From assembly GCA_029265405.1 (NCBI GenBank), contig JAJUJI010000002.1, forward strand, positions 218,680 through 282,679: a stretch of 64,000 nucleotides of DNA, read 5' to 3'. The stretch's first letter is position 1; each line of letters opens with the position of its first letter. Source of the DNA: Clostridiales bacterium. GTDB lineage: Bacteria; Bacillota; Clostridia; Oscillospirales; Oscillospiraceae. Below are positions 16,995-49,618 of the stretch, in pieces. The notes below the pieces were generated by a model. That model was not told where the DNA came from. It ran no database searches and saw nothing but the letters and a program-made list of their open reading frames with translations. Position numbers and translations under genes: made by a program.

Positions 16995-17489
16995 ATGGAA
17001 GAGAAATCAGGCTTTGTGAATGCAGGCTGTGATTATAAAAACGGTTCACTTAACGAGTGCATGCCACTGGCTGTGGCTTACGTGCCCTTTCAGCAGGAAG
17101 GCTCGCCTCAATATAAGGGACAGGACGCGCTGGCGCGCGGCACCCTTTTTCCGGGCCTTGACCTGCCGTGGAAAAACGTTGTAAATGAAAAGGCCGGAGC
17201 CGGTGTGGACACTCCCCTTGGAGAGCTGATGACGCTCTGCTTTATTCTGAACGAGCTGGGCCTGTATCTTGATACCCACAGGAATGACAAGGAAGCTCTC
17301 GACATGTACGTCAAATATTCCGAGCTTTACAAAAAAGGAGCCGAAGCCTTCGCAAAGCGCTACGGGCCGCTTACCCAGTCCCAGGTGACGGCGGAGGGCT
17401 ATACCTGGCTCAACAGCCCCTGGCCCTGGGAATATCATAGCTGGAGCGCGCCGACTGGCGAACTCGAAGCGGAAAGGACGGCTGTCTGA
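16995..17489 (+). CDS. Spore coat protein, CotJA-CotJB fusion
   Basis: 164 residues in one uninterrupted frame. Residues ~22-60 (MPLAVAYVPFQ ... ALARGTLFPGLDLPWK) match CotJA. Residues ~73-150 (LGELMTLCFILNELGLYLDTHRND ... YGPLTQ ... WLNSPWPWEY) match CotJB. These are normally two adjacent small genes. The proteins belong to the inner spore-coat CotJ complex made in the mother cell. CGGAGG lies 6 nt before the ATG. The stop overlaps the cotJC start (TGATG), as expected for the cotJABC operon. Confidence 0.88.
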   Translation: MEEKSGFVNAGCDYKNGSLNECMPLAVAYVPFQQEGSPQYKGQDALARGTLFPGLDLPWKNVVNEKAGAGVDTPLGELMTLCFILNELGLYLDTHRNDKEALDMYVKYSELYKKGAEAFAKRYGPLTQSQVTAEGYTWLNSPWPWEYHSWSAPTGELEAERTAV

Positions 17490-17580
17490 TGTTTATATAC
17501 GAAAAAAAGCTGCAATATCCGATAAAAATAAAGAACACAAACCCAAGGCTCGCGGGAATAATAATCAGCCAATACGGTGG
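17489..17580 (+). pseudogene. cotJC: cotJC 5' fragment (codons 1-30), interrupted by an intervening element
   Basis: Starts at an ATG overlapping the cotJA-B stop. MFIYEKKLQYPIKIKN followed by NPRLAGIIISQYG is the N-terminus of CotJC, the Mn-catalase-like coat protein. Similarity ends at Gly30-Gly31 (17579-17581); beyond that the frame runs to 17749 as unrelated sequence. The remaining 168 codons are at 49112-49618 on the same strand and in the same phase. This fragment alone carries none of the predicted metal ligands. It is labelled pseudogene only because it is incomplete in this arrangement. I interpret it as one half of a gene reconstituted by excision. Confidence 0.9.
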
Positions 17581-17600
17581 ACCGTATTCCGTCGGGCTAC
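17560..17600 (+). other. Left junction (attL) of the cotJC intervening element
   Basis: cotJC half-site up to AATACGGT, central GG (17579-17580), then the element half-site ACCGTATTCCGTCGGGCTAC (17581-17600). AATACGGTGG (17571-17580) is repeated directly at 49104-49113. The element half-site is the inverted counterpart of the right-end half-site (18 of 20 positions). A symmetric site around a 2-bp centre is the hallmark of serine integrase crossover sites. Confidence 0.85.
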
Positions 17601-17639
17601 AACTCCGCAAGCCGCGGGATTATGCCATAAAACGTTTTG

Positions 17640-19649
17640 CTAAAGCAGCCTGCGGTAATACAGCCCGGTCGTGCGGGCTCCGTCATACGCTTGGCCGTTT
17701 TTATGGAGCCTGTAGGCCCTTAGGCAGTCTGCGGCCGATTCCTTTGTGAAATAAAGCAGAGCAAACTCTATGCCCCTTAAGTCCCTGTCTCCTATATAAA
17801 GCGGCGCCGAGTTTAGAATCTCCGAATACTCCCCGTCCCGGCAAAGCACCGTAAAGGACTTCCCCCGCCTGTCAAGCAGCTGCCCGGAGCCGCCGCAGCC
17901 GGGGCGGCAGCCGCCCTTGGATTTCAGCGGACAGTTTCTGCAGAGCATGAGCGGCAGATAGCCGTAGGTTATCAGTCCTCTTGGCAGGCTCCCGCCCAGC
18001 CCTCGCGCATCCTTAAAGCTGATTTCGTAAGACAGCAAAGCGTCCTCAAGTCCCATACCCTCATAGACCTTCAGCGCTTTCGTATTCATTATGTTAAGGT
18101 CGAAGCCGCCGCTGACCCGGAAGCCAAGTCTCCGTGCCAGCCTGACGGTTCCTATATTCCCCGCGCAGACTCTTGACAGGCCCTTTTCTTTCAAACCCGA
18201 AAGCAGCTTTTCCAGCTTTGCTTCCCCAAGGGGATAAACCAGCCTGGGAAGCTCTCCGACGAGCTTGTCTCCCCATCCGCCGATAAGCTCGGCGTCGATT
18301 TCCCCTACGGGAACATATATCGTTTCCTCGCCTATGCCCTCAAACATCTGCTCCTTTTTTGCAAACCTCAGCCTGAGCTCCGGCTCCCGCTCTGAATACC
18401 TCGCTTCAGGCTTCTCAAGATCTCCAATGAAGCTCCACGGCTTTACCTTGCTCCTGAGCTCCAGCAGCTTTTCCAGGGCCTGCCTTCGCAGCGGATTGAG
18501 CTTTGACGTATAACCGTTTTCAATATCAGTCCTGCAGCTCCTAAGGACAAAGGGAGTGCCTCCCGTCCTCCTGAGGCTGTCCTCGGCTCTGATTTCATTC
18601 CTCTCCGCTCTTTCGGGCAAATCGCCCCATACGATCGCCGCCTCTTTGCCGTCGGTAACGGTCAGCCGCGCGGGTTCGCCCGGTTTGATTGTAAGCTCCA
18701 TGTCTACCGGCGCCCTGGACAGCTCCCTTCTGTAAAGCTCCCTTACTCCGGCTATCTCCTCCATGCTTTCCGCAGCGTTTTCCTCGGTTCTGCGGCCGAA
18801 CATGTCAAGGCCGCGCTTTCCCGTAAGATAGCCGTCTGTAAAGCCGCCTCTGGAGAAAATCCTCCCAAGCCTGTCCATATCCGGCTTTTCGCCCCGCAGG
18901 GCCCTGACGCAGGCGTCAGTCGCCGCGGCAACGTACTCGGGCCGCTTCATCCTACCCTCTATTTTCAGGGAAACCACGCCAGCCGTCTCAAGCTCGCGCA
19001 AATGCCCTATATAGCTCATATCCTTGAGAGACAGCGCGTAGGGCCTGCCTCCAGCCCTGAAGTCAAGTCTGCAGGGCTGGGCGCATAAGCCTCTGTTGCC
19101 ACTTCGGCCCCCAAGCATGGAGGAAAGCCCGCACTGGCCGGAAACGCTCATGCATAAGGCGCCGTGTACAAAGCATTCAAGCTCGATGTCCGTCTTTTCG
19201 GCTATTGTTCTTATCTCCCTAAGTGTCAGCTCCCTGGCCAGCACCACTCGTGAAAAGCCCAGCTCCCTGGCGGCCTTCGCGCCCTCGGCGTTGTGTACCG
19301 TCATTTGCGTCGAGGCGTGGCGCGGCATATCCGGAAGATGCTCCCTGAACAGGGCCATTACCCCCAGGTCCTGTATAATTACCGCATCTGCCCCGCTTTG
19401 GGCCACGCTCCGCATCAGCCCGTAAAGCTCCTCCGTTTCGGAATCCTTCAAAAGGGTGTTTATAGTTACATATACCCTTACGCCGCGCCCACGGCAATAG
19501 GCTGCGGCCGCGCTCAAGTCCTCAGCGGCAAAATTCTGCGCGTTGCGCCTTGCGTTGAAAGCGCCGGCCCCCAGATATACCGCGTCGGCGCCCGAGCGCA
19601 CGGCGGCTATAAGCTGCTCCCAGCCTCCGGCCGGAGCGAGAATCTCCAT
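17640..19649 (-). CDS. U32 family peptidase-like protein (RlhA/DUF3656-type)
   Basis: 669 residues. The N-terminal TIM-barrel-like U32 domain begins ILAPAGGWEQLIAAVRSGADAVYLG and contains the family signature ECFVHGALCMSVSGQCGLSS near residue 160, then RGLCAQPC. The middle and C-terminal part matches the long U32 form with a DUF3656-like insert and a late Cys cluster (CRNCPLKSKGGCRPGC) that may bind an Fe-S cluster. Long U32 proteins of this type include 23S rRNA cytidine hydroxylases; others are called collagenase-like, so the reaction is uncertain. The stop lies only 60 bp inside the left junction. Confidence 0.85.
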   Translation of the reverse strand: MEILAPAGGWEQLIAAVRSGADAVYLGAGAFNARRNAQNFAAEDLSAAAAYCRGRGVRVYVTINTLLKDSETEELYGLMRSVAQSGADAVIIQDLGVMALFREHLPDMPRHASTQMTVHNAEGAKAARELGFSRVVLARELTLREIRTIAEKTDIELECFVHGALCMSVSGQCGLSSMLGGRSGNRGLCAQPCRLDFRAGGRPYALSLKDMSYIGHLRELETAGVVSLKIEGRMKRPEYVAAATDACVRALRGEKPDMDRLGRIFSRGGFTDGYLTGKRGLDMFGRRTEENAAESMEEIAGVRELYRRELSRAPVDMELTIKPGEPARLTVTDGKEAAIVWGDLPERAERNEIRAEDSLRRTGGTPFVLRSCRTDIENGYTSKLNPLRRQALEKLLELRSKVKPWSFIGDLEKPEARYSEREPELRLRFAKKEQMFEGIGEETIYVPVGEIDAELIGGWGDKLVGELPRLVYPLGEAKLEKLLSGLKEKGLSRVCAGNIGTVRLARRLGFRVSGGFDLNIMNTKALKVYEGMGLEDALLSYEISFKDARGLGGSLPRGLITYGYLPLMLCRNCPLKSKGGCRPGCGGSGQLLDRRGKSFTVLCRDGEYSEILNSAPLYIGDRDLRGIEFALLYFTKESAADCLRAYRLHKNGQAYDGARTTGLYYRRLL

Positions 19650-19741
19650 ATTTGATTGAATGCCTCCCTTCGGGCGCCGAGCGCCTTGCGTCCTTTAGCG
19701 CCGCGGACAATATAGCACATTTGCAGAACCGAAAAAAGTGT

Positions 19742-19770: not shown

Positions 19771-19834
19771 ACTAGCGTAGCGCGAATGCCGAATTCGCGC
19801 AAATATCAGAGCGTGCGGGAAGGAGCGTCGCCAA

Positions 19835-22324: not shown

Positions 22325-22354
22325 GCCGGGCCGCATGATAAAAAGGCGCTGGGC

Positions 22355-35135: not shown

Positions 35136-35854
35136 TGCCATATCCCACTCCGCACAATGAAGGCTCGCCGGAGGATTTTGCCAAGACCGTCTTGATGCCG
35201 GGCGATCCGCTCAGGGCTAAATTTGTATCCGAAACCTATCTTGAAAACCCCAGGCTTGTCAACAACATACGCGGCATTCAGGGCTGGACCGGAACCTACA
35301 GAGGCTTTCCCGTTTCAGTGATGGGCAGCGGCATGGGCATGCCCTCGATCGGAATATACAGCTACGAGCTGTTTAATTTCTACGGCGTCGAAAACATAAT
35401 CAGGATAGGCTCGGCCGGAGGCCTTAATGAAAAAGTAAAGCTGCGCGATATCGTATTCGGAATGGGAGCCTGCACCGATTCCAATTTTGCCGCACAGTAC
35501 AGGCTGCCCGGAAGCTTCGCGCCCATAGCGAGCTGGGAGCTGCTTTTGGCGGCTGCGGAGGCGGCAAGGAAAACAGGAGCGGCATATCACGTGGGCAGCC
35601 TTTTATCCTCCGACCATTTCTATAACGACGACCCTGAAGCAGCGTTATGCTGGGCCAAGATGGGCGTTCTGGCGGTTGAGATGGAAAGCGCAGCTTTATA
35701 TATGAACGCCGCGCGAGCCGGCAAAAATGCTCTGGCTATCTGCACCATATCCGACCATCTTATAACCGGCGAAGCCGTCGGCGCGGACGAGCGGAGGACA
35801 GCTTTTACGCAGATGATGGAGATAGCCCTTCAAATTGCAATAAATTTTGCATAA
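35135..35854 (+). CDS. deoD: Purine-nucleoside phosphorylase, DeoD type
   Basis: 239 residues: MPYPTPHNEGSPEDFAKTVLMPGDPLRAKFVSETYL, GSGMGMPSIGIYSYELF, RIGSAGG and VEMESAALYMNA are the hexameric PNP signatures. SDH (SDHLITGE) carries the catalytic Asp. It releases purine bases and (deoxy)ribose 1-phosphate, feeding deoC. The ATG at 35135 overlaps the deoC stop; GGAGG lies 10 nt upstream. Confidence 0.96.
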   Translation: MPYPTPHNEGSPEDFAKTVLMPGDPLRAKFVSETYLENPRLVNNIRGIQGWTGTYRGFPVSVMGSGMGMPSIGIYSYELFNFYGVENIIRIGSAGGLNEKVKLRDIVFGMGACTDSNFAAQYRLPGSFAPIASWELLLAAAEAARKTGAAYHVGSLLSSDHFYNDDPEAALCWAKMGVLAVEMESAALYMNAARAGKNALAICTISDHLITGEAVGADERRTAFTQMMEIALQIAINFA

Positions 35855-35889
35855 ATTGCTTCATTTGGTTTCCAGACTGTTTATTTGAG

Positions 35890-35918
35890 TTGATTTTTAT
35901 CGGAAAAAGTGCTAATAT
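35890..35918 (+). promoter_or_regulatory. Predicted promoter of the nucleoside-uptake operon
   Basis: TTGATT (35890-35895), 17-nt spacer, TAATAT (35913-35918), in the 129-bp gap between deoD and the binding-protein gene. It would let the transporter be made independently of the tdk-deoCD genes. Confidence 0.5.
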
Positions 35919-35983
35919 TCTTTTGGTTTAGATAACGGCAATATTTGCTATAGCAATATTGTCTTTAAATGGAGGAAAGAGTA

Positions 35984-37093
35984 ATGAAAAAGAAACTAGC
36001 CCTGTTGATGGTTTTGGCGCTAGCCTTCACAGCGTTTGCAGGCTGCTCCGGCAAGAAAACCGGCGGCGCTTCAGAATCCAACCTCAACAAAGACGGTACC
36101 TATGAGCTCGTCCTCGTTACGGACGTAGGCAACATTGACGACCAGTCCTTCAACCAGTCCTGCTGGGAAGCCGTGAAGCAGTTCGGCATTGACAACGGCA
36201 TCGATTACGCGTATTACCGTCCTTCGGAGGACTCGACAGAGGCTCGCATAGAGGCCATGACCACGGCCATAGACAAGGGTGCCGAAACCATAGTTTGCCC
36301 CGGCTATCTTTTCGAGGACGCGGTATATGAGATGCAGACCAAGTATCCCAATGTAAATTTCATCCTTATCGACGGGGAGCCCCATACCTCCGACTATTCC
36401 ACATACAATACCGAGAAGAACACCCACTGCATATTGTATCAGGAAGAGCAGGCCGGTTATCTGGCCGGTTATGCCGTTGTTAAGGACGGGTATACGGAGC
36501 TCGGCTTCTGCGGCGGAATGGCTGTTCCCGCCGTTGTGCGCTACGGCTACGGCTTTATTCAGGGTGCGGAAGCTGCCGCGGCCGAAACCGGAGCCAAGGT
36601 CAACATCAAATATTACTACTGCGGGGCCTTCGGTCCTTCCGACGACCTGCAGACCAAGATGTCGAGCTGGTATACGGAAGGCACACAGATCGTGTTCGCC
36701 TGCGGCGGCAGCCTGTATCTGAGCGTCGTAGCCGCGGCCGAAGCGGCGGGCAAAAAGGTCATAGGCGTGGACGTGGATCAGTCTTATATATCCGACACTA
36801 TAGTGACCTCCGCCATGAAGCAGCTTAAGACCTCCTGCCTGATAGCCCTTAAGGCTTTGTATGACAACGGCGGCGTCTGGCCCGAAGCCTATGCCGGCAC
36901 CACCGACCATCTTGGAGCCGCTCAGGATTGTGTGGGTCTCCCCACTGACGAAGGCTCCTGGAGGTTTACCAAGTTCACGACCGACGAATATAAGGCCGTA
37001 TTCGATAAGCTCGTGTCCGGCGAGATAGTCGTTTCCAACGACATCAACAACGCGCCCGCCGTCACTAATGTCACCGTCGATTACCAGGGCTGA
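35984..37093 (+). CDS. BMP/PnrA-family nucleoside-binding lipoprotein
   Basis: 369 residues. Lipoprotein signal ending AFAGC (lipobox Cys near residue 21), then the BMP fold: LVLVTDVGNIDDQSFNQSCWEAVKQF, PGYLFEDAVYEMQTKYPNVNFILIDG, EEQAGYLAGY and GVDVDQSYISDTIVTSAMKQL. PnrA and BmpA-type proteins bind purine nucleosides outside the membrane and deliver them to the ABC transporter encoded just downstream. The ATG at 35984 has TGGAGGAAAGAG before it; an upstream in-frame ATG overlaps that site and is unlikely. Terminator-like hairpin at 37112 follows. Confidence 0.93.
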   Translation: MKKKLALLMVLALAFTAFAGCSGKKTGGASESNLNKDGTYELVLVTDVGNIDDQSFNQSCWEAVKQFGIDNGIDYAYYRPSEDSTEARIEAMTTAIDKGAETIVCPGYLFEDAVYEMQTKYPNVNFILIDGEPHTSDYSTYNTEKNTHCILYQEEQAGYLAGYAVVKDGYTELGFCGGMAVPAVVRYGYGFIQGAEAAAAETGAKVNIKYYYCGAFGPSDDLQTKMSSWYTEGTQIVFACGGSLYLSVVAAAEAAGKKVIGVDVDQSYISDTIVTSAMKQLKTSCLIALKALYDNGGVWPEAYAGTTDHLGAAQDCVGLPTDEGSWRFTKFTTDEYKAVFDKLVSGEIVVSNDINNAPAVTNVTVDYQG

Positions 37094-37111
37094 ATACAAG
37101 CTTAAAGCATC

Positions 37112-37165
37112 AAAGGGCAAGCGAACATGCCGCGAAGCAAACCGAGCGGAAAGGGCTTGCCCTTT
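37112..37165 (+). terminator. Stem-loop after the nucleoside-binding protein gene
   Basis: AAAGGGCAAGC pairs with GCTTGCCCTTT across a 32-nt loop and runs into TTCTTT. Partial termination here would give more binding protein than transporter, a common arrangement. Confidence 0.75.
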
Positions 37166-37247
37166 TCTTTATTGATGCCGGCTTGACTTAGGAAAGCATA
37201 TACAATTAACAATAAATAGTTAAAATGAATTGATATGGAGTGACGGC

Positions 37248-38801
37248 ATGGACGACTATGTGATAGAAATGCTTGGCATAACCAAGGTATTTCCCGGCAT
37301 CGTCGCAAACGACGGCATAGACCTGCGCCTCCGCAGAGGCGAGGTCCACGCTCTGCTCGGGGAAAACGGCGCCGGCAAGTCCACGCTTATGAGCGTTCTC
37401 TTTGGGCTTTACCAGCCGGAAGCAGGCATAATCAAGAAAAACGGAAAAGTCGTGCAGATCAAAAACCCGAACGACGCCACCGCGCTCAATATAGGCATGG
37501 TGCATCAGCATTTCAAGCTGGTTGATGTATTTACGGTACTTGACAACATTATCCTGGGCGTTGAGCCGGTAAGAAACGGTTTTTTATACAAAAAGGAAGC
37601 CCGCAGGAAAGTTCTTGAGCTTTCTGAAAAATACGGGCTTCGCGTCGACCCGGACGCCAAAATCGAGGATATATCCGTCGGCATGCAGCAGCGGGTAGAG
37701 ATACTCAAAATGCTCTATCGTGAAAACGAAATTTTAATTTTTGACGAGCCGACGGCCGTATTGACGCCGCAAGAAATTAAAGAGCTGATGGCGACAATGC
37801 GCAGCTTTACCGCCGAGGGCAAGTCCATACTGTTTATCACGCATAAGCTTGCCGAAATCATGGAGGTGGCCGACCGATGCACGGTTCTCCGCAAAGGGAA
37901 GCATGTGGGTACCGTAAACGTCAAGGAAACGACTAAAGAAGAGCTTTCCCGAATGATGGTGGGCCGCGAGGTAAGCTTTACTGTCGAGAAGGGCAGATTC
38001 AGGCCGGGCGGCGTGGAGCTTGACGTCAGGCATCTGACGGTGCCCTCTAAGCTGCACAAAAACAATGCGGTAAAGGATGTTTCATTCCAGGTAAGGGCTG
38101 GGGAAATAGTCTGCATAGCCGGCATAGACGGCAACGGACAGACCGAGCTTACCCACGCGCTTACAGGACTGGATTCGCAAAGCCAGGGCACGATCACTCT
38201 GGGCGGAGTCGACATCTCCAAGGCCAGAATACGTGAACGCTCCAGGCTCGGCATGAGCCATATTCCGGAGGACAGGCATAAGCACGGCCTCGTCCTTTCG
38301 TTTACGCTTATGGAAAATTTGGTTCTTCAGCGCTACTGGGAACCTCAGTTTCAAAACAACGGCTTTATCAACAAAAACGCGGTCCGCGCCTATTCGGACA
38401 AGCTTATACGGCAATACGACATACGCAGCGGGCAGGGTTCCGACACCATAGCTCGCTCTATGTCGGGAGGCAACCAGCAGAAGGCCATAGTTGCCCGCGA
38501 GATAGACAAAAACCCGCGTCTTCTTGTTGCCATTCAGCCGACAAGGGGGCTTGACGTAGGAGCCATTGAATATATACACAAGCAGCTTGTAGCCCAGAGA
38601 GACGCCGGAAGGGCCGTTCTGCTGGTCTCCTTTGAGCTTGACGAGGTCATGAGCCTGGCCGACCGAATACTCGTCATGTACAACGGCGAGATAGTCGGGG
38701 AGTTTGACCCCCGCAAAGTTACGGTGGAAGAGCTGGGTCTTTATATGGCGGGAGCCAAACGAATGGACATAAGGAATATCGGAAAGGAGAATAAGGCATG
38801 A
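37248..38801 (+). CDS. Nucleoside ABC transporter, double ATP-binding subunit (NupA/RbsA-like)
   Basis: 517 residues with two ABC domains. The first has GENGAGKSTLM, a signature-like ISVGMQQRVEILKML and ILIFDEPTAVL; the second has a degenerate P-loop (GIDGNGQTEL), SGGNQQKAIVAREID and LLVAIQPTRGLDVGA. This layout is typical of the CUT2-like ATPases of BMP-dependent nucleoside importers. The ATG at 37248 has GGAG 7 nt upstream. Its end overlaps the first permease start by 4 nt. Confidence 0.94.
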   Translation: MDDYVIEMLGITKVFPGIVANDGIDLRLRRGEVHALLGENGAGKSTLMSVLFGLYQPEAGIIKKNGKVVQIKNPNDATALNIGMVHQHFKLVDVFTVLDNIILGVEPVRNGFLYKKEARRKVLELSEKYGLRVDPDAKIEDISVGMQQRVEILKMLYRENEILIFDEPTAVLTPQEIKELMATMRSFTAEGKSILFITHKLAEIMEVADRCTVLRKGKHVGTVNVKETTKEELSRMMVGREVSFTVEKGRFRPGGVELDVRHLTVPSKLHKNNAVKDVSFQVRAGEIVCIAGIDGNGQTELTHALTGLDSQSQGTITLGGVDISKARIRERSRLGMSHIPEDRHKHGLVLSFTLMENLVLQRYWEPQFQNNGFINKNAVRAYSDKLIRQYDIRSGQGSDTIARSMSGGNQQKAIVAREIDKNPRLLVAIQPTRGLDVGAIEYIHKQLVAQRDAGRAVLLVSFELDEVMSLADRILVMYNGEIVGEFDPRKVTVEELGLYMAGAKRMDIRNIGKENKA

Positions 38802-39931
38802 AAAAAAGCGTTTTGAAAAGCGAAGGCGCCATCAGCTTCATGTCCTCGCTTATTTCCATATTCTGCGGTCTGCTCGTAGGCTATATCCTGCTCTGGGTCT
38901 TCAACCCGAAATACGCAAACTATGGGCTTGGCTGCCTTGTTACGGCCGGCTTCAGCTCTCCCGCAAAGCTGGCTAAGGTGCTTTATCAGGCGGCTCCGCT
39001 GATACTGACCGGCCTTTCGGTAGGCTTTGCCTTTAAAACGGGGCTGTTCAATATCGGCGCTTCCGGCCAATATACCGTAGGAGCCTTCTGCGCCTTGATT
39101 TGCGGCATAGTATTCAAGCTTCCGTGGTGGGTCTGCCTGCTCGCGGCCATGGCGGGCGGTGCGGTTTGGGGCTTTTTCCCCGGCTTTTTCAAGGCCATGT
39201 TCAATGTCAACGAGGTCATAACCTCCATAATGTTCAACTGGATAGGCATGTTCGCGGTAAACGTCGTCTTTGCCAACATACCCTCCGCCCTCGACAATTT
39301 TTACGGAGCCTCCAACGCAGACCGTACAGCGGGGCTCGACGCGGCCAATCCCGGAGCGATTATACCCAGAGCCGGCCTGGACAGGCTCTTCGGTTCAACG
39401 TATATGAATATAAGCATTTTTCTGGCGGCCGTTATAGCGGTTATAATTTATATCGTTATCAAAAAAACCGTGTTTGGCTACGAGCTCAGAGCCTGCGGAA
39501 GCAACCGCGACGCCAGCCTTTACGCCGGCATCAACGCCAAGCGCAGCATCATTCTTTCCATGGCTATAGCCGGCGCGCTTTCCGGGATAGGCGGCGCGAT
39601 ATACTATCTTGCCGGAACGGGAAAATATACCCTTGAAAAATCTTTACTTGCCATGGGCTTCAACGGCATCCCCGTCGCCCTGCTGGCAAGCTCCAATCCG
39701 ATAGGCACCATCTTTTCCGCCCTGTTCATCTCATATATACAGGTAGGCGGAGACGCCATGCAGCCGGAATTTGCAGTCGAAACCATAGATATTATACTGG
39801 CGGTCATAATTTACATGTCGGCCTTTTCGCTGCTTATGAAATCCGTCGTATCAAAACTCATCGGCGGCAGGTTCAGGCGCAAGACGCGCGGGGCAGTACT
39901 AGACAAGGAGCAGGAGGGTGAGGCTCAATGA
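38798..39931 (+). CDS. Nucleoside ABC transporter permease 1 (NupB-like)
   Basis: 377 residues, about eight to ten predicted membrane helices. GLSVGFAFKTGLFNIGASGQY, FNVNEVITSIMFNWI and VFGYELRACGSNRDASLYAGINAKR are characteristic of the BMP-type branched permease family. It forms the inner-membrane channel with the next permease; ATPase and permease genes overlap by 4 nt at both ends, so expression is tightly coupled. Confidence 0.93.
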   Translation: MKKSVLKSEGAISFMSSLISIFCGLLVGYILLWVFNPKYANYGLGCLVTAGFSSPAKLAKVLYQAAPLILTGLSVGFAFKTGLFNIGASGQYTVGAFCALICGIVFKLPWWVCLLAAMAGGAVWGFFPGFFKAMFNVNEVITSIMFNWIGMFAVNVVFANIPSALDNFYGASNADRTAGLDAANPGAIIPRAGLDRLFGSTYMNISIFLAAVIAVIIYIVIKKTVFGYELRACGSNRDASLYAGINAKRSIILSMAIAGALSGIGGAIYYLAGTGKYTLEKSLLAMGFNGIPVALLASSNPIGTIFSALFISYIQVGGDAMQPEFAVETIDIILAVIIYMSAFSLLMKSVVSKLIGGRFRRKTRGAVLDKEQEGEAQ

Positions 39932-40902
39932 ACATTATTGCCGACGTTTTAGGCTCCACCATAATTTTCGCCGTTCCGCTGCTGCTTGTGGCGCTCGGCG
40001 GCATGTTCTCGGAGCGGAGCGGAATAGTCAACATAGCCCTGGAAGGAATTATGATAATCGGGGCTCTGGTATCGTGCCTTTTTTTGAAAACGGCAAACGA
40101 GGCCGGCCGGGGAGCTTCCTCCCCGCAGCTTACAGTACTGCTGGCGATACTTATCGCGGCAGCTTCGGGCATGATATTTTCACTGCTGTTGGCCTTCGCC
40201 TCCATCAAGCTGAAGGCGGACCAGACGATAGGCGGTACTGCGCTCAATACGCTGGCCCCCGCCTTTGCCATAGTCCTGACCTGGGCGGTCCAGGGGCAGG
40301 GGCAAACAAACATAATGCTCCCAACCTGGGTGCGCATAAGCGGCATAAGCGCCGAGTCGGGCTTTTTTGCGCGTGTGTTCCTTAAAAATTCCTACCTGAC
40401 TACTCCTGTCGCAGCCTTGCTGCTTATCGTATCGATAATACTGCTGTATAAGACCCGTTTCGGCCTCAGACTGCGGGCCTGCGGGGAGCATCCCCACGCC
40501 GCCGATTCTGTCGGCGTCAACGTGGCAAGGATGCGCTATGCCGGCGTCATGATATCCGGCTTCCTTGGAGGCATAGGAGGACTTGCCTTCACGCTTGCGG
40601 CGGGCTCCGGCTTTTCCTCGACGGTCGCCGGTTACGGCTTCCTTGCTCTTGCCGTAATGATATTCGGCAACTGGAAGCCCCTTAATATCTTGGGCGCTTC
40701 ATTGTTTTTCGCACTGTTCAAGGTTGTCGGAAACTACGCCAGCAGCCTGCCCTTCCTTCCTGATTTTACCGGCGTAAAAAGCTCGACATACATTTATCAA
40801 ATGCTGCCCTATATCGTTACCATGATAATCCTTATCTTTACCTCCAAAAAATCGCGAGCCCCAAAGGCGGAGGGCATACCCTACGACAAGGGGCAGAGGT
40901 GA
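39928..40902 (+). CDS. Nucleoside ABC transporter permease 2 (NupC-like)
   Basis: 324 residues with multiple membrane helices. LGGMFSERSGIVNIALEGIMIIGAL and FGLRLRACGEHPHAADSVGVNVARMRYAGVMISGFLGGIGG are the family signatures. It partners permease 1. The start overlaps the upstream stop by 4 nt; 37 nt separate its stop from udk. Confidence 0.93.
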   Translation: MNIIADVLGSTIIFAVPLLLVALGGMFSERSGIVNIALEGIMIIGALVSCLFLKTANEAGRGASSPQLTVLLAILIAAASGMIFSLLLAFASIKLKADQTIGGTALNTLAPAFAIVLTWAVQGQGQTNIMLPTWVRISGISAESGFFARVFLKNSYLTTPVAALLLIVSIILLYKTRFGLRLRACGEHPHAADSVGVNVARMRYAGVMISGFLGGIGGLAFTLAAGSGFSSTVAGYGFLALAVMIFGNWKPLNILGASLFFALFKVVGNYASSLPFLPDFTGVKSSTYIYQMLPYIVTMIILIFTSKKSRAPKAEGIPYDKGQR

Positions 40903-40939
40903 GGCGGGATCGTTTTTATGCTTTCAGGGAGGCTAAAGG

Positions 40940-41572
40940 ATGAATACGCTTGTAATCGGCATTGCGGGAGGCTCCGGCAGCGGAAAAACGACGCTTACAC
41001 GCCGTCTTGTCGAAGAATTCGGCGGCTATATCACCGTAATCAGCCATGACGACTATTACCGGAGCCATGACGAGCTGACCATGGAGGAGCGCTCCCGCCT
41101 GAATTACGACCATCCCGACGCCTTCGACACCGCTTTGATGTGCGAGCATCTCAGGCTGCTTAAAAACGGCATAGCCGTAGACTCCCCGGTATACGACTAT
41201 GCCGTCCACAACCGCTCGGGCAGGACTTCGCATGTGCTTCCCAATCTTGTTATCATCGTCGAGGGAATACTGATTTTTACCAGCGAGGAGCTGTGCAGCC
41301 TGCTGGACATAAAGGTTTACGTCGAGGCGGACGCGGATTTGAGGCTCATTCGCCGCATATTGCGCGATACGCAGGAGCGCGCCCGGAGCCTGCAATCCGT
41401 GCTGAACCAATATGTAAATACGGTCAAGCCCATGCACGAGCTTTACGTAGAGCCCAGCCGGAAAAAAGCGGACCTGGTCGTACCCACCTTCCGAGAAAAC
41501 CCGGTTGCCCTGGAAATGCTCATTGCAAGAGTGAGAAGCCATGTGCTGGCAAACACCGGCAATCCATCTTAA
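40940..41572 (+). CDS. udk: Uridine kinase
   Basis: 210 residues. P-loop GGSGSGKTT (residues 10-18), VISHDDYYRS, NYDHPDAFDTALM, PVYDYAVHNRS and VIIVEGILIF are classic Udk motifs. It phosphorylates uridine or cytidine with ATP or GTP, trapping nucleosides imported by the transporter encoded just before it. AGGGAGG precedes the ATG. Last gene of the salvage block, followed by a terminator. Confidence 0.94.
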   Translation: MNTLVIGIAGGSGSGKTTLTRRLVEEFGGYITVISHDDYYRSHDELTMEERSRLNYDHPDAFDTALMCEHLRLLKNGIAVDSPVYDYAVHNRSGRTSHVLPNLVIIVEGILIFTSEELCSLLDIKVYVEADADLRLIRRILRDTQERARSLQSVLNQYVNTVKPMHELYVEPSRKKADLVVPTFRENPVALEMLIARVRSHVLANTGNPS

Positions 41573-42665: not shown

Positions 42666-45600
42666 CTATTTTACGGCCACGTTCTCCGGCCCCAGCATTT
42701 CAGTCAGCTCTCTGACAAATGAAGGGTGTATCCAGCAGGTGGAGGCGGCGCGCTTGCCGGTGTCGGAAAATACGACCACTATCCTTTCCTCGCCGATGAA
42801 CATGGTTTTGACGAGCTGCAGGCGCCTGTATTCCGGTGAATCCATGGAAGGAAGCTTTACATAGAGTGTTTTTGCGGAAGTGCTTAGCCCGGGCATGTCC
42901 GCCTTGCCGGCGCCGCCATTTCTAATGGTCTTGGCGTCCTGCACAACTCCGGTCTGCCCTCCGTCGTTTTCGGCGGCGTTTCCCTCTAACGGAGCCATCG
43001 CGTCGCAGATAAGCTGCGGTTCCTTTTCATCCCTAACGGATATTTTTCCTCTGGCCAACACAGGCGTCCCTTCCGAAATAAGCCGGCCCGCATCGTTCAG
43101 CGTACGCTGAAAAACAAGCAGCTCTATTGAGCCGCCGCCGTCCTCAAGAGTAACGTAGGCCATAAGGCTGTTGTTTTTGGTTGTCTTTGTCTTTACCGAG
43201 GATATGATGCCCGCTATCGTTATCTGCTGCCCGTCCCTGAACTCCCCGCTTTCCTCATCCTGCGCGCCTCCAAAGGCCGACAGCACGTCGCCTATCGAAA
43301 CCGCTCCGGCCCTTCGCGCAAGGTCTCTGTAGTCGTCCATGGGATGGCCTGAAAGATACAGGCCTGTTACTTCCTTTTCCATAAGCATGCGCTCCATGGC
43401 GCTGTACTCCTCGAGCTCCGGCAGCGGAGTGTCACGGTAATGCTCCTCGTCTCCGAAGAGGCTGATCTGACCTTCAAGTCTTCCCTTCCGTTCTTCCGCC
43501 GCGTTGTCAAGAGCCTGCGGGAAGATTTGCATAAGCCGGCTCCTGTAAACTCCGAGGCTGTCGAAGGCCCCGGCCTTTATCAGGCTTTCCAGGGTGCGCT
43601 TGTTCATTTCAGCGCCGCACAGCCTGCGGCAAAAATCATCGAAGCTTTTAAACGGGCCTTTGTCAGCGCGCTCGGCCTCCAGCGTTTTTACAAAATTCCG
43701 GCCTATGCCCTTGATGGCCACCAGCCCGAAGCGTATGCCGGAAGGGGTTACAGTGAAGCCCTCCCCGGATTCGTTTATATCGGGCGGCAGCACGCTGATG
43801 CCGTTCTGGCGGCATTCGGCTATGTATTCGGATATCTTGCCGCTGCTGTCCTGCACGGAGCTGAGCAGCGCGGCCATATATTCCTTCGGGTAGTAGCATT
43901 TCAAATAAGCTGTCTGATAGGCAATAATAGCGTAGGATACGGCATGGGACTTGTTGAAGGCGTAGTTTGCAAAATCAAGTATTTCGTCGTAGATCTCCAT
44001 GGCGACTTCTGCCGGCACTCCGTTTGCGACGGCTCCGGGTATGCCCCTTGCAGGGTCGCCCTCTATGAAGGTCTTGCGCTCCTTGACTATCTCCGACTGC
44101 TTTTTCTTCGACATGGCGCGGCGTATCATATCCGCTTGCCCCAGAGAGAAGCCCGCCAGCTTTCTGAATATTTCTATTACCTGCTCCTGATAGACTATGC
44201 AGCCATAGGTGACTTCCAGTATATCCTTCAAAAGCGGATGCTTGTACTTGATGCGCTCGGGGTGGTGCTTGCAGTCTATAAAGCGGGGGATGCTGTCCAT
44301 AGGCCCCGGGCGGTACAGGGCAATAATAGCCGTAATGTCTTCAATGCTGCCGGGCCTCAGCCCCACGCACACTCCGGTCATCCCAGCCGATTCCATCTGG
44401 AACACTCCTGAGGTCTTTCCGGCGGTAAGCATCGCAAATACGTTTTGGTCGTCCTCCGGTATATCCTTCAGCTCAAAATCCGGCCTCGTTCTTTTTATGA
44501 GCCTTACGGCCTCATGCAGGACCGTCAGGTTGCGCAGGCCGAGGAAATCCATTTTAAGGAGCCCGATTTCCTCGACGGTTCCCATAGGGTATTGGATTAC
44601 GGTCACTTCGTCGTTTCGGGCAAGCGGAGCGTATTCGTATACCGGCTTTTTGGTTATTACTATCCCGGCGGCATGTGTGGAGGCATGGCGCGGCATGCCC
44701 TCCAAAGCTCTGGCCGTGTCGATAAGCCTTTTTATCTCCTCGCTGCCGTCGTAGAGGTCCTTGAGGGGCTTTGAAATGCGCAGCGCGTCGTCAAGCTTCA
44801 TATTGAGCGCGGCCGGTATAAGCTTTGCTACCCGGTCGGCCTCGCCGTAGCTGATGCCCTGCGCGCGCGCCACATCGCGCACCGCCGCCCGTGCCGCCAT
44901 CGTGCCGAAGGTGACAATCTGCGCCACATGATCCGAGCCGTATTTTTTGTTTACATATTCAATTACCTCGCCTCTGCGGGCTTCGCAAAAATCCATGTCT
45001 ATATCCGGCATGCTTACGCGCTCCGGGTTAAGGAAGCGCTCGAACAGCAGGCCGTACCTGATGGGATCCACATCGGTTATTCCGAGGGCGTAGCTTACAA
45101 TGCTGCCGGCCGCCGAGCCGCGCCCGGGCCCGACGGGGATGTCCCTGGACCTGGCGTAGCCGACATAGTCGGCCACTATGAGGAAATAATCGGTAAAGCC
45201 CATTTTTTCTATCAGCGCCAGCTCATAATCCAGCCTGGGCTTCATATCCGGCGCCTTATTTCCGTAGCGGCGGGCAAGCCCTTCCTCGCAGAGCCGACGC
45301 AGGTAGCTTTGCGGGTCGCTTTCGCCTTCGGGCAGCGGAAATTCAGGCAGATGGTATTCGCCGAAGGCAAATTCTAAAGAGCACATATCTGCGATTTTAA
45401 CTGTATTGTCGGCAGCCTCAGGATAATCCGGAAACAGCGAGCGCATCTGCGCTTCCGATTTAAGGTAAAATTCCTCGGAGCCGAACCGGAGCCTGTCGGC
45501 ATCGTTCACGTTTTTTTGCGTCTGTATGCACATCAGGATGTCTTGAGCGTAAGCGTCTTCCCTGTCGATATAGTGGGCGTCGTTTGTGAGCACAAGAGGC

Positions 45601-46193
45601 AGCCCGGTTTCCCTGTGCAGGCGCAGAATACCGGCGTTTACGGGCTTTTGCTCCGGCAAGGAATGGTCCTGGAGCTCAAGATAGAAGCAGTCCCTGCCGA
45701 AAAGCGCGGCGTATTCCAGCGCCGCGCTCTTGGCCCTCTCATATTCGCCTCTCGCCATAAGGCGGGGTATCTCTCCCGCAAGGCAGGCGGATAATGCAAT
45801 CAGGCCCTCGCTCCGGCTACGCAGCAGCTCCTTATCTATTCTTGGCTTGACATAGAAGCCTTCAAGATAAGCTTGCGATACAAGGTAGCATAAATTTTTA
45901 TATCCTGTTTCGTTTCTGCACAGGAGCACAAGATGGTTCGATTCGCTGTCTATGCCGTGCTCCTTATCGGTCATTCGGCGGGGCGCAACATAAACCTCAC
46001 AGCCTATGACGGGCTTGATTCCGGCCTTCTTTGCCGCTTTATAAAAGGCAATGGCGCCGTACATGACGCCGTGGTCCGTTACGGCGACGGCCGTCTGACC
46101 CAGCTCGGCGGCGCGCCCGACGAGCCGCTCCAACCGGCACGCTCCGTCCAAAAGGCTGTATTCGCTATGGACATGAAGATGAACGAAGGACAT
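42666..46193 (-). CDS. dnaE: DNA polymerase III alpha subunit (DnaE)
   Basis: 1175 residues. Order of domains: PHP (FVHLHVHSEYSLLDGACR), polymerase core with PDIDMDF and the GPGRGSAAGSIVSY block, helix-hairpin-helix region and an OB-fold (ITIAGIISSVKTKTTKNNSLMAYVTLEDGGGSIELLVF). No embedded 3'-5' exonuclease, so DnaE1/DnaE3-like and not PolC. Clostridia normally use PolC plus DnaE; PolC is not in the window. GGGGAG precedes the ATG. Its position inside the cotJC-interrupting element is remarkable because dnaE is normally essential. Confidence 0.97.
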   Translation of the reverse strand: MSFVHLHVHSEYSLLDGACRLERLVGRAAELGQTAVAVTDHGVMYGAIAFYKAAKKAGIKPVIGCEVYVAPRRMTDKEHGIDSESNHLVLLCRNETGYKNLCYLVSQAYLEGFYVKPRIDKELLRSRSEGLIALSACLAGEIPRLMARGEYERAKSAALEYAALFGRDCFYLELQDHSLPEQKPVNAGILRLHRETGLPLVLTNDAHYIDREDAYAQDILMCIQTQKNVNDADRLRFGSEEFYLKSEAQMRSLFPDYPEAADNTVKIADMCSLEFAFGEYHLPEFPLPEGESDPQSYLRRLCEEGLARRYGNKAPDMKPRLDYELALIEKMGFTDYFLIVADYVGYARSRDIPVGPGRGSAAGSIVSYALGITDVDPIRYGLLFERFLNPERVSMPDIDMDFCEARRGEVIEYVNKKYGSDHVAQIVTFGTMAARAAVRDVARAQGISYGEADRVAKLIPAALNMKLDDALRISKPLKDLYDGSEEIKRLIDTARALEGMPRHASTHAAGIVITKKPVYEYAPLARNDEVTVIQYPMGTVEEIGLLKMDFLGLRNLTVLHEAVRLIKRTRPDFELKDIPEDDQNVFAMLTAGKTSGVFQMESAGMTGVCVGLRPGSIEDITAIIALYRPGPMDSIPRFIDCKHHPERIKYKHPLLKDILEVTYGCIVYQEQVIEIFRKLAGFSLGQADMIRRAMSKKKQSEIVKERKTFIEGDPARGIPGAVANGVPAEVAMEIYDEILDFANYAFNKSHAVSYAIIAYQTAYLKCYYPKEYMAALLSSVQDSSGKISEYIAECRQNGISVLPPDINESGEGFTVTPSGIRFGLVAIKGIGRNFVKTLEAERADKGPFKSFDDFCRRLCGAEMNKRTLESLIKAGAFDSLGVYRSRLMQIFPQALDNAAEERKGRLEGQISLFGDEEHYRDTPLPELEEYSAMERMLMEKEVTGLYLSGHPMDDYRDLARRAGAVSIGDVLSAFGGAQDEESGEFRDGQQITIAGIISSVKTKTTKNNSLMAYVTLEDGGGSIELLVFQRTLNDAGRLISEGTPVLARGKISVRDEKEPQLICDAMAPLEGNAAENDGGQTGVVQDAKTIRNGGAGKADMPGLSTSAKTLYVKLPSMDSPEYRRLQLVKTMFIGEERIVVVFSDTGKRAASTCWIHPSFVRELTEMLGPENVAVK

Positions 46194-46253: not shown

Positions 46254-47486
46254 TCAATAAACCGATTCGCGGATGCGCTCCGCCCAGGCTTCGTAGTAGG
46301 CCGCTTTTAGATGGATCCCGTCAAAGGTAGCCTCACGCGGCAGGCTCCCGCCCGAGTCGAATATAGTATGGACATCTATCAGATAAGCGCCCTTATCGCG
46401 GGCAAGACGGTCTATGGTCCGGTTTATTTCCACCACATTCTCATTGTTGAAGGAGGATGGGCATTCGGCAATTCCCTCGTTTACAGGCGGAACGTTGTTT
46501 AGATATACGGCCGAAGCAGGCTGCTCCTTCCTTACCCTGTCAATCAAAGCACCGTAGCTTTTATAAAAAGATTCCATATCAGAAGCCATTTCGTTTGTAC
46601 CGAATACGAGTATAACTATTTTGTAATTTCCGGAGCTCAGAGCCTCGTCCAGCCCGACCTTAATCCCGCCGCTCCCCGAAAAGTCGGCGCCGTCCGCCCC
46701 GTACACAGAAACTCCGTTGCAGTAGAAGCACGCCGCCCCGCCCAGTCCGCCGTAGGCGGCAAGCCCTCCGGCCAGCGAATTGCCTATAATTAAAGCCTCC
46801 GAGAAGCGCCCGTCTCCCGTTTCAAATCCGCCAGCCGATACATATTTCATCATGGGGCTGCGCTGGCTTTCTTCAAAGAGCCTCAGCATGATCTGCGCAG
46901 ATTGCGCTCTGGTAAGCCTGTCCTCTCCGTGAAAGCTGCCGTCGTCATAGCCGTTCATAAGCCCCAGGGCGCAGACTTTTACCACCGCGTCACGGTATTC
47001 TGCAGGCATCGAATAAAGATCCTCAAGCCCGGCCCTGACAGAGGCCGTATCCGGCACTGCCGCAAAGCCTTCCGGCGCCGAGGCTTTAATATGAAGACCG
47101 CAAAGCAGCAGAGCCGCGTTGTATCTGTCGAGAGGCAGCTCCATTGCGGCTTCCGAAAGCGCGCTGACTTCTATCATGCCGGCCGAAACGCCCGCCTCGT
47201 AGTAGGGACGCCACCACTCCTCGCCTTCCGCGCGGGTCAGCTCAGTATCGTAAAAAAGCATTTTGATAAACTGCGCGGCCGTCAGCGTTTCGCCGGGGTG
47301 AAAATTGCCGTCGTCAAATCCGTTTATTACGCCAGTTTTCCTAAGCTTTGTAACCGCGCCGTAATACCAGGCGCCTTCAGCCACGTCCGGAAAGCTTCCT
47401 CCCGCATTCATCGCATAGGCGCAGGTTGCGGCGGCTGCCGCCGCTACCGCAACCGCCAATAAAATAACAAGTCTAAACCTTTTCAT
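46254..47486 (-). CDS. SLH-domain surface protein with SGNH/GDSL-type hydrolase domain
   Basis: 410 residues. Signal peptide (LVILLAVAVAAAAAATCAYA), then about three S-layer-homology units (FPDVAEGAWYYGAVTKLRKTGVINGFDDGNFHPGETLTAAQFIKML; a middle degenerate one; VKVCALGLMNGYDDGSFHGEDRLTRAQSAQIML). The C-terminal ~190 residues look like an SGNH hydrolase: ALIIGNSLAGGL (nucleophile Ser in GNS), FGTNEM and DGIHLKAAYYEAWA (Asp/His). It probably binds the cell wall and deacylates an envelope polymer. Divergent from the recombinase gene across 103 bp. Confidence 0.85.
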   Translation of the reverse strand: MKRFRLVILLAVAVAAAAAATCAYAMNAGGSFPDVAEGAWYYGAVTKLRKTGVINGFDDGNFHPGETLTAAQFIKMLFYDTELTRAEGEEWWRPYYEAGVSAGMIEVSALSEAAMELPLDRYNAALLLCGLHIKASAPEGFAAVPDTASVRAGLEDLYSMPAEYRDAVVKVCALGLMNGYDDGSFHGEDRLTRAQSAQIMLRLFEESQRSPMMKYVSAGGFETGDGRFSEALIIGNSLAGGLAAYGGLGGAACFYCNGVSVYGADGADFSGSGGIKVGLDEALSSGNYKIVILVFGTNEMASDMESFYKSYGALIDRVRKEQPASAVYLNNVPPVNEGIAECPSSFNNENVVEINRTIDRLARDKGAYLIDVHTIFDSGGSLPREATFDGIHLKAAYYEAWAERIRESVY

Positions 47487-47510
47487 AACGACAATTATTC
47501 TACTCCTTCA

Positions 47511-47519
47511 TCATATAAT
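47511..47519 (+). promoter_or_regulatory. Candidate sigma-E-type -10 element upstream of the recombinase gene
   Basis: TCATATAAT fits the mother-cell sigma-E -10 pattern (ATA core with AT-rich end), 70 nt before the recombinase ATG. The -35 region (around 47491-47497, ACAATTA) matches poorly. The motif is short and AT-rich, so this is only a suggestion of sporulation-time control. Confidence 0.25.
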
Positions 47520-47589
47520 TATCAAGCCTATCCCCTTTTACAAAGGAGCGCGTGTATGATGCTATTTTAAATTTTAAGAGGTGGCGGCC

Positions 47590-49059
47590 ATGTCCGGCAA
47601 CGCATGCGGCAGCCTTCGCCCGGCGGCGGCCTACATAAGAGTATCTACCGAGGACCAGACGGAGTACTCGCCCGACGCGCAGCTTTCCGAAATACGGAAA
47701 TACGCCGCCCGCGAAGGCTTTATCATTTTGCCTCAGCATATTTATGTGGACGAGGGCATATCGGGCAAGGATGCAAAAAAGCGCGACGCCTTCAACCTTA
47801 TGATAAGCGCTTCCAAAACCCGGCCGAAGCCCTTCGACGCGATTCTGGTATGGAAATTTTCACGCTTTGCCCGCTCTCGCGAGGACAGCGTCATTTACAA
47901 ATCCCTGCTCCGCCGTGAGCTGGGCATAGACGTGATATCCGTAACAGAGCCGCTGTCCGATGAGAAGACCAGCGTGATATTGGAAGCGGTAATCGAGGCT
48001 ATGGACGAGTACTATTCGTTGAATCTTTCCGAGGAGGTAAAGCGCGGCATGACTGAGGCGGCAAGACGAGGCAAGCTGCAAGGAACGGCAAGCTTCGGCT
48101 ACAGGAGCGAAAACGGGGCGCTTGTCCCCGATAACGGAGAGGCCGCGCTTGTGCGCGAAATCTTCACGCTCTTTGCTGAAGGCGAGAGCTTTTTTTCAAT
48201 AGCAAAACGGCTGAACGATACCGGCGCGCGAACCCGCAGGGGAAATGCCTTTGAAAACAGGACCATTGAATATATTTTGCGCAATCCCGTTTATATAGGA
48301 AAAATGCGCTGGAATCCGACAGGCCCAACCCGCCGCGACTTTTCAAACCCCGGCATAATCACAGCCGACTCAAGCCATATGCCCCTGGTCGATGCCGAGC
48401 TTTGGGAGGCGGTCCAGAGGCGGTTAGCCGAAATCAAGCCGCGGCGCAAGCCGCACGGCCGTCCGGCGCAGGAATTGAGGGATTGGCCCTCGGGTCTTGT
48501 CCGCTGCTCGGCCTGCAAAAGTTTTTTGATACACTCGGCTCCACATTATTACAAATGCGGCGGCTATGCCCGGGGCCGCTGCGCCGCATCTCAGCATATC
48601 CCCTCGGAAGTCTTGAAGGAAGCCATAATCGCCCGGCTTGAGGACGACGCTTCAAGCGCCCCAAGCCCGTCCTACGATTTGATAAGGACTCGCGACGCCG
48701 CCGCCGAGCGGCTGCGCATATATGAAAAGGCACTTGCGGAAAACGAGCGCAGGGCCTCCCGACTGCGGGAGGCCTACCTGGCGGGGGCCGAAAGTCTAGC
48801 CTCCTACGTAAAAATAAAAGCTTCACTTGATGAAGACGCCGTCCGTGTCAGAGAGCTTCTCTCAAAGGAAATCAGCCTTGCCGCCGAGGACGAAGGCAGC
48901 CATGCTTTGAAGAGTTCCATTGAAGCGGCCCTCAGCTCTCTCGCCCGCGCCGCCGCAACAACCGCGGAAAAGCACGAAGCCGCCGCTTCGATCATCAGGG
49001 AGGCCGTGTATGACAAGCAGTCCAATTTATTGACTATATATTACAGGTTTTCCTTGTAA
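47590..49059 (+). CDS. Large serine recombinase of the cotJC intervening element
   Basis: 489 residues. N-terminal resolvase catalytic domain with AAYIRVSTEDQ (nucleophile Ser19), FSRFARSREDS and ITRVSE-like segments; then the recombinase DNA-binding domain (GYRSENGALVPDNGEAALVREIF ... YILRNPVYIGKMRWN), a zinc ribbon (CSACKS ... YKCGGYARGRC, ~residues 304-335) and a coiled-coil region (~375-440) typical of large serine integrases. The ATG at 47590 has AGAGGTGG upstream; the GTG at 47581 overlaps that site. It reads toward the right junction, 44 bp from the core, as in SpoIVCA-type elements. Confidence 0.93.
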   Translation: MSGNACGSLRPAAAYIRVSTEDQTEYSPDAQLSEIRKYAAREGFIILPQHIYVDEGISGKDAKKRDAFNLMISASKTRPKPFDAILVWKFSRFARSREDSVIYKSLLRRELGIDVISVTEPLSDEKTSVILEAVIEAMDEYYSLNLSEEVKRGMTEAARRGKLQGTASFGYRSENGALVPDNGEAALVREIFTLFAEGESFFSIAKRLNDTGARTRRGNAFENRTIEYILRNPVYIGKMRWNPTGPTRRDFSNPGIITADSSHMPLVDAELWEAVQRRLAEIKPRRKPHGRPAQELRDWPSGLVRCSACKSFLIHSAPHYYKCGGYARGRCAASQHIPSEVLKEAIIARLEDDASSAPSPSYDLIRTRDAAAERLRIYEKALAENERRASRLREAYLAGAESLASYVKIKASLDEDAVRVRELLSKEISLAAEDEGSHALKSSIEAALSSLARAAATTAEKHEAAASIIREAVYDKQSNLLTIYYRFSL

Positions 49060-49091
49060 ATAATTGGCACATTATGCGTGAGCGGCAAATC

Positions 49092-49130
49092 ATAGCCTGA
49101 CGGAATACGGTGGGCCGGATGGCGAGCTGG
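49092..49130 (+). other. Right junction (attR) of the cotJC intervening element
   Basis: Element half-site ATAGCCTGACGGAATACGGT (49092-49111), central GG (49112-49113), then cotJC sequence GCCGGATGGCGAGC. AATACGGTGG (49104-49113) repeats the left core. Read on the opposite strand the half-site is ACCGTATTCCGTCAGGCTAT, differing from the left half-site at two of 20 positions. Confidence 0.85.
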
Positions 49131-49618
49131 GAGCTTCGCTGCGCTATTTAAGCCAGCGCTACACCATGCCCTACGACGAGCTCAAAGGGCTTCTTACCGA
49201 CATAGGAACCGAGGAATTGGGACATCTGGAAATGATAGGCACGCTTGTCCACCAGCTTACCCGCAACCTGAGCGAAGAGCAATTGAAGGCCGACGGCTAC
49301 GACGCCTACTTTGTAGACCATACCGCCGGCGTGTATCCGACGGCGGCCTCAGGCACGCCATGGAGCGCGGCGGGAATGCAGGTTAAAGGGGATCTGATAG
49401 CCGACTTAACCGAGGACATGGCGGCGGAGCAAAAGGCCCGCGTTACATACGACAATATACTCAGGCTCAGCGACGATCCGGACGTAAACAATGTCATACG
49501 CTTCCTGCGCGAAAGGGAGATAGTGCATTTCCAGCGCTTTGGCGAAGGGCTCAGGCTGGCGCTGGACAGACTTAATCAGAAGAACGTATATGTTATGAAC
49601 CCAAGCTTCGACAGATAG
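49112..49618 (+). pseudogene. cotJC: cotJC 3' fragment (codons 31-198), Mn-catalase-like spore coat protein
   Basis: 168 codons continuing CotJC from GPDGELGASLRYLSQRY to the end. GLLTDIGTEELGHLEM, DLTEDMAAEQKARVTYDNI and FLREREIVHFQRF give the di-manganese ligands. In the joined protein these are Glu35, Glu65, His68, Glu136 and His169. The frame is open leftward only to a TGA at 49079; the first internal ATG (49166, codon 49) would omit Glu35, and no ribosome site supports it. No stop or frameshift occurs along the fragment, which argues that it is still under selection. The joined length of 198 is normal for CotJC. Confidence 0.92.

Follow-up and report, generated by a model that had tools for sequence, protein, structure and literature searches.

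Within a window of 64,000 nucleotides from a Clostridiales bacterium of the Oscillospiraceae (assembly GCA_029265405.1, contig JAJUJI010000002.1, positions 218,680 to 282,679, forward strand), the gene cotJC, whose family has a role in sporulation, is held as two halves that lie at the predicted attachment (att) sites attL and attR of a large serine recombinase. We infer, with a probability of roughly 0.76, that the halves are rejoined during sporulation with excision of the 31.5 kb of chromosome between them (hereafter, the interval). The locus is best read as a rejoining system of the skin kind that has a new target gene, its interval having taken in indispensable chromosome. Positions are those of the window, that is, of the whole stretch analyzed. 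The features at the two ends of the interval are:

16995..17489, + strand: fused cotJA-cotJB, the upstream partner of cotJC (Pfam CotJB 5.4e-24, CotJA 8.5e-14); its stop overlaps the cotJC start.
17489..17578, + strand: cotJC 5' part, codons 1-30 (open reading frame and in-frame join).
17559..17604, no strand: predicted attL, comprising the cotJC side, the GG core at 17579-17580 and the interval-side arm at 17581-17604 (arm comparison).
47581..49059, + strand: large serine recombinase, with a second in-frame start ATG at 47590 (Pfam Resolvase, Recombinase and Zn_ribbon; PHROG_95 integrase 1.9e-97).
49088..49113, no strand: predicted attR, comprising the interval-side arm at 49088-49111 and the GG core at 49112-49113 (arm comparison).
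49112..49618, + strand: cotJC 3' part, codons 31-198, lacking a start codon where the family has one (Pfam Mn_catalase 3.5e-41).

The split was confirmed in the window, and what the initial annotation had claimed of it holds on re-reading. Codons 1-30 (90 nt) and codons 31-198 (507 nt) lie 31,533 bp apart on the + strand and in the same frame; their in-silico join gives 198 residues with the terminal stop as the sole stop; and the startless 3' part, which matches Pfam Mn_catalase at an expectation value (E) of 3.5e-41, contains neither a frameshift nor a stop. An internal ATG at 49166 would yield 150 residues without the ELGAS stretch, which we take, by analogy with manganese catalases, to hold the first metal ligand. 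The window's own genome (98.8% complete, in 20 contigs) has a single match to the cotJC C part at E 0.001, and no second cotJC was found in that search. Misassembly is an unlikely source of the split.

The dinucleotide GG borders both halves, at 17579-17580 and 49112-49113, where it forms bases 1-2 of a conserved glycine codon. The interval-side arms of 24 nt, AATCATAGCCTGACGGAATACGGT on the right and, as reverse complement, AGTTGTAGCCCGACGGAATACGGT on the left, are identical at 20 of 24 positions as inverted repeats; in 500,000 pairs of 24-mers drawn at random from the interval, no pair scored higher than 18. In the predicted circle formed from the interval, the two ends would make a near-palindrome around GG, which is the layout of a phage attP.

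The recombinase, which the initial annotation had placed at the right edge, carries the three domains of a large serine recombinase in one protein, with the frame open across all of them; it is the one recombinase gene found in the interval. The best PDB relative of its family is SprA (YokA; 9dxh, E 2.3e-29). A second serine recombinase, 30% identical, is present elsewhere in the window's genome (G000:C18:1129-2508). A scan of a species-genome collection with seven recombinases gave at least 453 relatives; among the best 80 of these, one of which (L121) is itself a query row, 74 have a cotJC half no more than 250 bp from their end, the 3' part in 41 cases and the 5' part in 33, while six stand beside neither (two of the six at contig ends). 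In a second sample, 295 genomes of the order drawn separately and scored for the top five candidates per genome at a cut-off of E 1e-95, the recombinase is carried by 24 genomes, the window's own included, and abuts cotJC in 22; with the four rows of the model removed, the figure is 18 of 20. The two samples have at least two genomes in common. Many genomes thus link the recombinase family to cotJC.

Relatives of the recombinase are also common in viral contigs, where a palindrome of the predicted attP layout follows the gene by 22-37 bp. Out of 80 viral loci, the 58 with a usable frame and flank were examined, and in the 18 that passed the palindrome cut the centre is GG in nine, CC in six, and AT, TT and CA in one each. 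Two of the six CC-centred cases are identical in sequence, and three have a cotJ match near by and hence may not be free phage. A palindromic CC attP must integrate reversed to match the GG in cotJC, which places the recombinase at the opposite end; an attP centre of either GG or CC would therefore explain why genomes differ in the half, 3' or 5', that adjoins the gene. The two placements are about equally frequent, and across the recombinase tree one gives way to the other some 20 times or more, also between close relatives; this count may be one too high, since one placement label (L148) is wrong. Inversion of the interior was also considered as the cause of left- versus right-placed recombinases and was dropped, the GG or CC centre being the simpler account.

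Full-length CotJC was then queried in 38 genome handles chosen for carrying the recombinase, 18 from the 80 loci and 20 from the 24 genomes of the order sample. Separate 5' and 3' pieces are present in 37 of the 38, or in 35 of 36 without G145 and G202, which repeat G065 and G066; the exception is G169, whose 3' matches are too weak to read. Where both halves share a contig (counting the window, G016 and G058 with these handles), 24 pairs are direct and two opposed; the rest lie on different contigs. The opposed pairs are those of Oscillibacter valericigenes Sjm18-20 (L118, a closed genome), 10.3 kb apart, and of G227:C3, 108 kb apart, and with att sites so oriented rejoining would invert the DNA between them and not excise it. 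Some genomes have further cuts near codons 64, 135 and 177 (L141, L177, L160, L159), probably made by other recombinases, and in G266:C1:205516-274919 the gene is in four pieces, ordered and on one strand, over 69 kb. The elements themselves, labeled by eye from translations and mostly without family search, range from prophage-looking ones of 23-40 kb (G062, G067, G074, G108, G228) and one resembling a conjugative element (G068) to remnants in which, at the frame size considered, one or two others accompany the recombinase (G070, 2.3 kb; G064, 3.6 kb; G238, 4.1 kb).

Two further genomes have host genes between the pieces. In Pseudoflavonifractor phocaeensis An569, ddl, murF, prfA and tsaC lie between the first two cotJC pieces, 40 kb apart, and the att arms match across this distance; the genome has one release factor 1 (RF1, prfA) over the family cut-off. 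In G016, the interval measures less than 5 kb and contains proC together with a DNA polymerase IV-like gene, below the curated cut-offs.

The separated halves appear to be maintained. None of the 27 right-placed C halves with a long enough match, the window's included, has an internal stop; stop codons flagged in matches to the C part in G062, G108 and G227 are located in the arm ahead of GG and do not belong to the joined gene. Nine pairs of split C halves were tried for the ratio of nonsynonymous to synonymous substitution rates (dN/dS), of which four were saturated and one was missing, and the four unsaturated pairs gave 0.024, 0.026, 0.053 and 0.017. On these sequence comparisons the split C halves of relatives are under purifying selection. 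Compared with uninterrupted cotJC, the window's C half has a mean identity of 76.6% with nine intact copies, whose averages among themselves are 64-76%; the nine come from 24 loci with a full C part and are those on the + strand with one N-terminal pattern. Recombinase and cotJC identities correlate (Mantel rho 0.39, a value reached by 1 of 999 permutations), consistent with partly vertical descent. Startless genes this conserved are presumably joined and used.

A protein of about 70 residues, encoded on the opposite strand upstream of the recombinase, was found by profile searches in 23 of 79 loci within the fetched flanks, and is a candidate directionality factor. In a set of 14 genomes it is present at E 1e-16 or better in seven of the 11 with the recombinase and in none of the three without a close recombinase relative. 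Four of the seven carriers (G023, G028, G060, G065) are model rows, so that G000 (the window's genome), G019 and G063 are the independent finds; in G023, G060, G065, G028 and G019 the gene is near the recombinase. No member of the family was matched in the 64-kb window. In the window's genome a copy of about 65 residues is found by itself on another contig (G000:C14:92127-92324, which is L232:8127-8324; E 6e-17), and the factor is likewise on a separate contig in P. phocaeensis; these are the two genomes with essential genes in the interval. Near the G000 copy are a small acid-soluble spore protein (SASP) gene, about 1 kb away, hsp90 and a transposase-type gene. The predicted structure is a hairpin plus a helix, with a mean predicted local distance difference test score (pLDDT) of 81.7 and a predicted template modeling score (pTM) of 0.54. 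The members tested have no match in Pfam or PHROG, and the best viral matches are small phage proteins, mostly uncharacterized, at E 0.07 or worse. This suggests that the family is new.

Upstream of the candidate factor a pair of motifs recurs: [CA]ATAGGACAA, a gap of 9-10 bp, and CATAGRNTG. Written as a pattern with these sequences in view, the two blocks together occur in 12 of 28 candidate-factor upstreams against 0.025 in shuffles, and in 0 of 77 recombinase genes; the one-block pattern occurs in 16 of 28 against 0.94, and in 4 of 77 recombinase genes against 2.19. A model trained on 27 of the upstreams puts the pair at the 9-10 bp spacing in 21 of the same 27. TAGGACAA fits the SpoIIID box, and spoIIID is present in the window's genome. 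The spacing can be reconciled with the description of sigma-E promoters in PMC517825, which shows them as logos and not as letters, if the -10 element starts two bases before CATA. Judged from its upstream regions, the candidate directionality factor often has a sigma-E/SpoIIID-like promoter in relatives of the window's organism.

A number of observations count against programmed rejoining of cotJC, and some of them favor a gene that was split for good: a phage integrated in cotJC, a rearrangement trapped chromosome, and the halves were never rejoined. In the window's genome the candidate factor is no longer beside the recombinase, and its promoter match there is weak (TTTAGGAAAAC, 9 bp, AATATGGTAT; 109 of 2000 shuffles equal it). 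In G016:C72 (L103) the recombinase frame is truncated and opens onto the cotJC 3' half without a recognizable arm; a recombinase so cut short makes the system there look dead, and it is probably dead or dying. The 3' part in P. phocaeensis is interrupted once more around codon 135, its final piece being 57 kb distant and in the opposite direction, so that one excision would not restore the gene and a second event would be needed. As for the candidate factor, its directionality role is argued from position, size, co-occurrence and promoter; it was not found in four recombinase genomes (G001, G016, G051, G058); a PDB fold search gave no match below E 0.7; its partner could be the second recombinase on C18; and the promoter pattern was written after the sequences had been seen, the trained model being fitted to the same sequences. 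None of the sporulation motifs sought upstream of the recombinase genes was enriched. Finally, both dN/dS pairs that involve the window are saturated, and selection on its own halves is shown by identity alone. Nevertheless, we consider a dead gene improbable: the window's 3' half has no stop or frameshift and is as near to intact copies as these are to each other, dN/dS is 0.017-0.053 between the split halves of four close pairs, the distant arms still match at 20 of 24 positions, and the recombinase frame is open over its three domains.

The content of the interval bears on the other explanations. Its main features are:

17640..19649, - strand: U32 peptidase family gene, the first in the interval, 60 bp from the core (Pfam Peptidase_U32 7.2e-73).
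33896..41572, + strand: nucleoside salvage and uptake genes, namely thymidine kinase, deoC, deoD, Bmp lipoprotein, ABC ATPase, two permeases and uridine kinase (Pfam; NCBIfam equivalogs over cut-off for tdk, deoC, deoD and udk).
42666..46193, - strand: dnaE, DNA polymerase III alpha subunit (NCBIfam NF005298 equivalog, 1620 bits).
46254..47486, - strand: SLH-domain GDSL hydrolase (Pfam).

The interval also encodes a glycyl radical enzyme and transporters (Pfam), and a frame of 755 residues at 25863-28130 with no Pfam or PHROG match. DnaE is essential in Bacillus subtilis. The copy in the interval is the only full DnaE-type match in its genome, the weak partial matches falling in a frame of 1331 residues, the size of PolC, on contig C8; it is thus likely that growing cells cannot live without the interval's dnaE. 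Since dnaE is present in all 60 relatives searched and the SLH-GDSL gene adjoins it also in G010, G002 and G023, the pair is old host DNA. That the interval was ancestrally beside cotJC was considered from synteny and dropped: in G029 and G028 dnaE is on the contig of cotJC, but no other gene of the window links them. Among the 20 interval frames compared with PHROG none matched a head or packaging family; the matches are to host-shared enzymes and transporters, with one weak tail match (1.1e-4) in the SLH gene. Searches of the window for tRNA genes and Rfam families returned no matches. The exogenous, usually prophage-like content of skin-type elements is therefore absent from the interval, in which the look of an element is limited to the recombinase, about 95 bp before it, and the two att arms.

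Could such an interior have been joined to a real att-bounded element by assembly or binning? The genome is in 20 contigs and dnaE is located elsewhere in relatives, both of which would suit an artefact. However, tetranucleotide usage is common to the interval and its surroundings (interval halves versus flanks, r 0.67-0.78; either half versus 14 stretches of other genomes, r at most 0.66), and P. phocaeensis has other essential genes between its pieces, as a third genome, G016, has proC and the DNA polymerase IV-like gene; an artefact is very unlikely. No more probable is an ordinary mobile element, with rejoining only when the element departs, as in phage induction, and no tie to sporulation: full prophages by eye do occur among the cotJC elements (G062, G067, G074, G108, G228) and viral relatives of the recombinase are common, but no head or packaging gene was found in the window's interval, departure would remove dnaE, some elements are reduced to the recombinase and one or two frames (G070, 2.3 kb; G238, 4.1 kb), and the candidate factor has a sporulation-type promoter pair in many relatives.

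Returning to rejoining during sporulation, we propose the following sequence of events. A phage would have integrated in cotJC, and its interior would have been lost and replaced by chromosome through rearrangement. During growth, the recombinase would be present but idle for excision. In the mother cell, the candidate directionality factor (C14:92127-92324), made under sigma-E and SpoIIID and so confining the joining to that compartment, would act on the recombinase in trans; recombination between attL and attR at GG would then restore codon 31 and release a 31.5-kb circle carrying dnaE, while the copy of cotJC in the forespore would stay split. The mother cell dies without further division and hence can lose dnaE. 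A growing cell would probably not survive the joining, which calls for a tight lock.

Several sporulation genes are known to be rebuilt in this manner, and we compare them with cotJC. In Clostridium difficile, the skin element in sigK has the recombinase CD1231 and a directionality factor of 72 residues, CD1234, that is under sigma-E and SpoIIID (PMC5025042). There, as at cotJC, a sporulation gene is split by a serine-recombinase element, with a small factor that at cotJC is a candidate, and the skin recombinase is not sporulation-specific (PMC5025042); unlike skin, the target here is cotJC and not a sigma factor, the interval is host-like with dnaE, and the candidate factor is outside it and matches no Pfam or PHROG family. 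SPbeta in spsM of B. subtilis (SprA/SprB) likewise interrupts a spore-envelope gene, which for SPbeta is rejoined in the mother cell, but it is a full phage in another target gene, whereas the cotJC interval holds dnaE (PMC4191935). The gin element in gerE of B. cereus resembles the interval in being non-phage intervening DNA of similar size (28.6 kb); it differs in being an exogenous low-G+C island with three recombinases, the cotJC interval having host composition and one recombinase found (PMC5595907). The yin element in yabG of C. botulinum also bears a recombinase and splits a sporulation gene, yet it is prophage-like and reported from one strain, whereas the cotJC family spans many genera (PMC10747680).

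The skin-like layout proposed in the initial annotation hence stands in part. Shared with skin-type elements are a sporulation gene in two in-frame parts and a recombinase inside the interval with matching predicted att sites at both ends. The skin-like reading is further supported by the tie of the recombinase family to cotJC, by viral attP of matching layout, by the purifying selection on the separated halves of relatives, and by a candidate factor whose upstream region in many relatives has a sporulation-type promoter. What did not hold is the interior: the 31.5 kb are not prophage-like, and the candidate factor is outside the interval, on another contig, and not inside the element as is typical of the skin type. 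In the open PubMed Central literature, a scope that takes in few subscription papers and no preprints, we recognized no paper describing a cotJC intervening element. The nearest published case is prophage phi027 of C. difficile R20291, in another lineage, whose attR adjoins a CotJC-like manganese catalase gene (PMC11222575).

More broadly, and at about even odds, cotJC in these Clostridia may be a split gene and not a gene with an insert: its halves would be parted by indispensable chromosome (dnaE here; prfA, murF and ddl in P. phocaeensis), with the factor acting from elsewhere. Rejoining, whether through excision or, as in Oscillibacter valericigenes, through inversion, would then amount to an irreversible and programmed break-up of the mother cell's chromosome, as a bacterial counterpart of somatic DNA elimination that spares the germline copy in the spore. 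If cotJC is indeed rejoined, the few sporulation genes that are rebuilt by DNA recombination would gain a spore-coat gene, one that a single recombinase family has targeted across an order and that is cut at several sites; a new candidate directionality-factor family is also on offer. The suggested route leads from a phage to a small domesticated element and on to a gene whose halves enclose indispensable chromosome. With essential genes in the interval, rejoining too early would kill the cell; this could account for the fixation of such splits and would offer a clean test of how tight the switch is.

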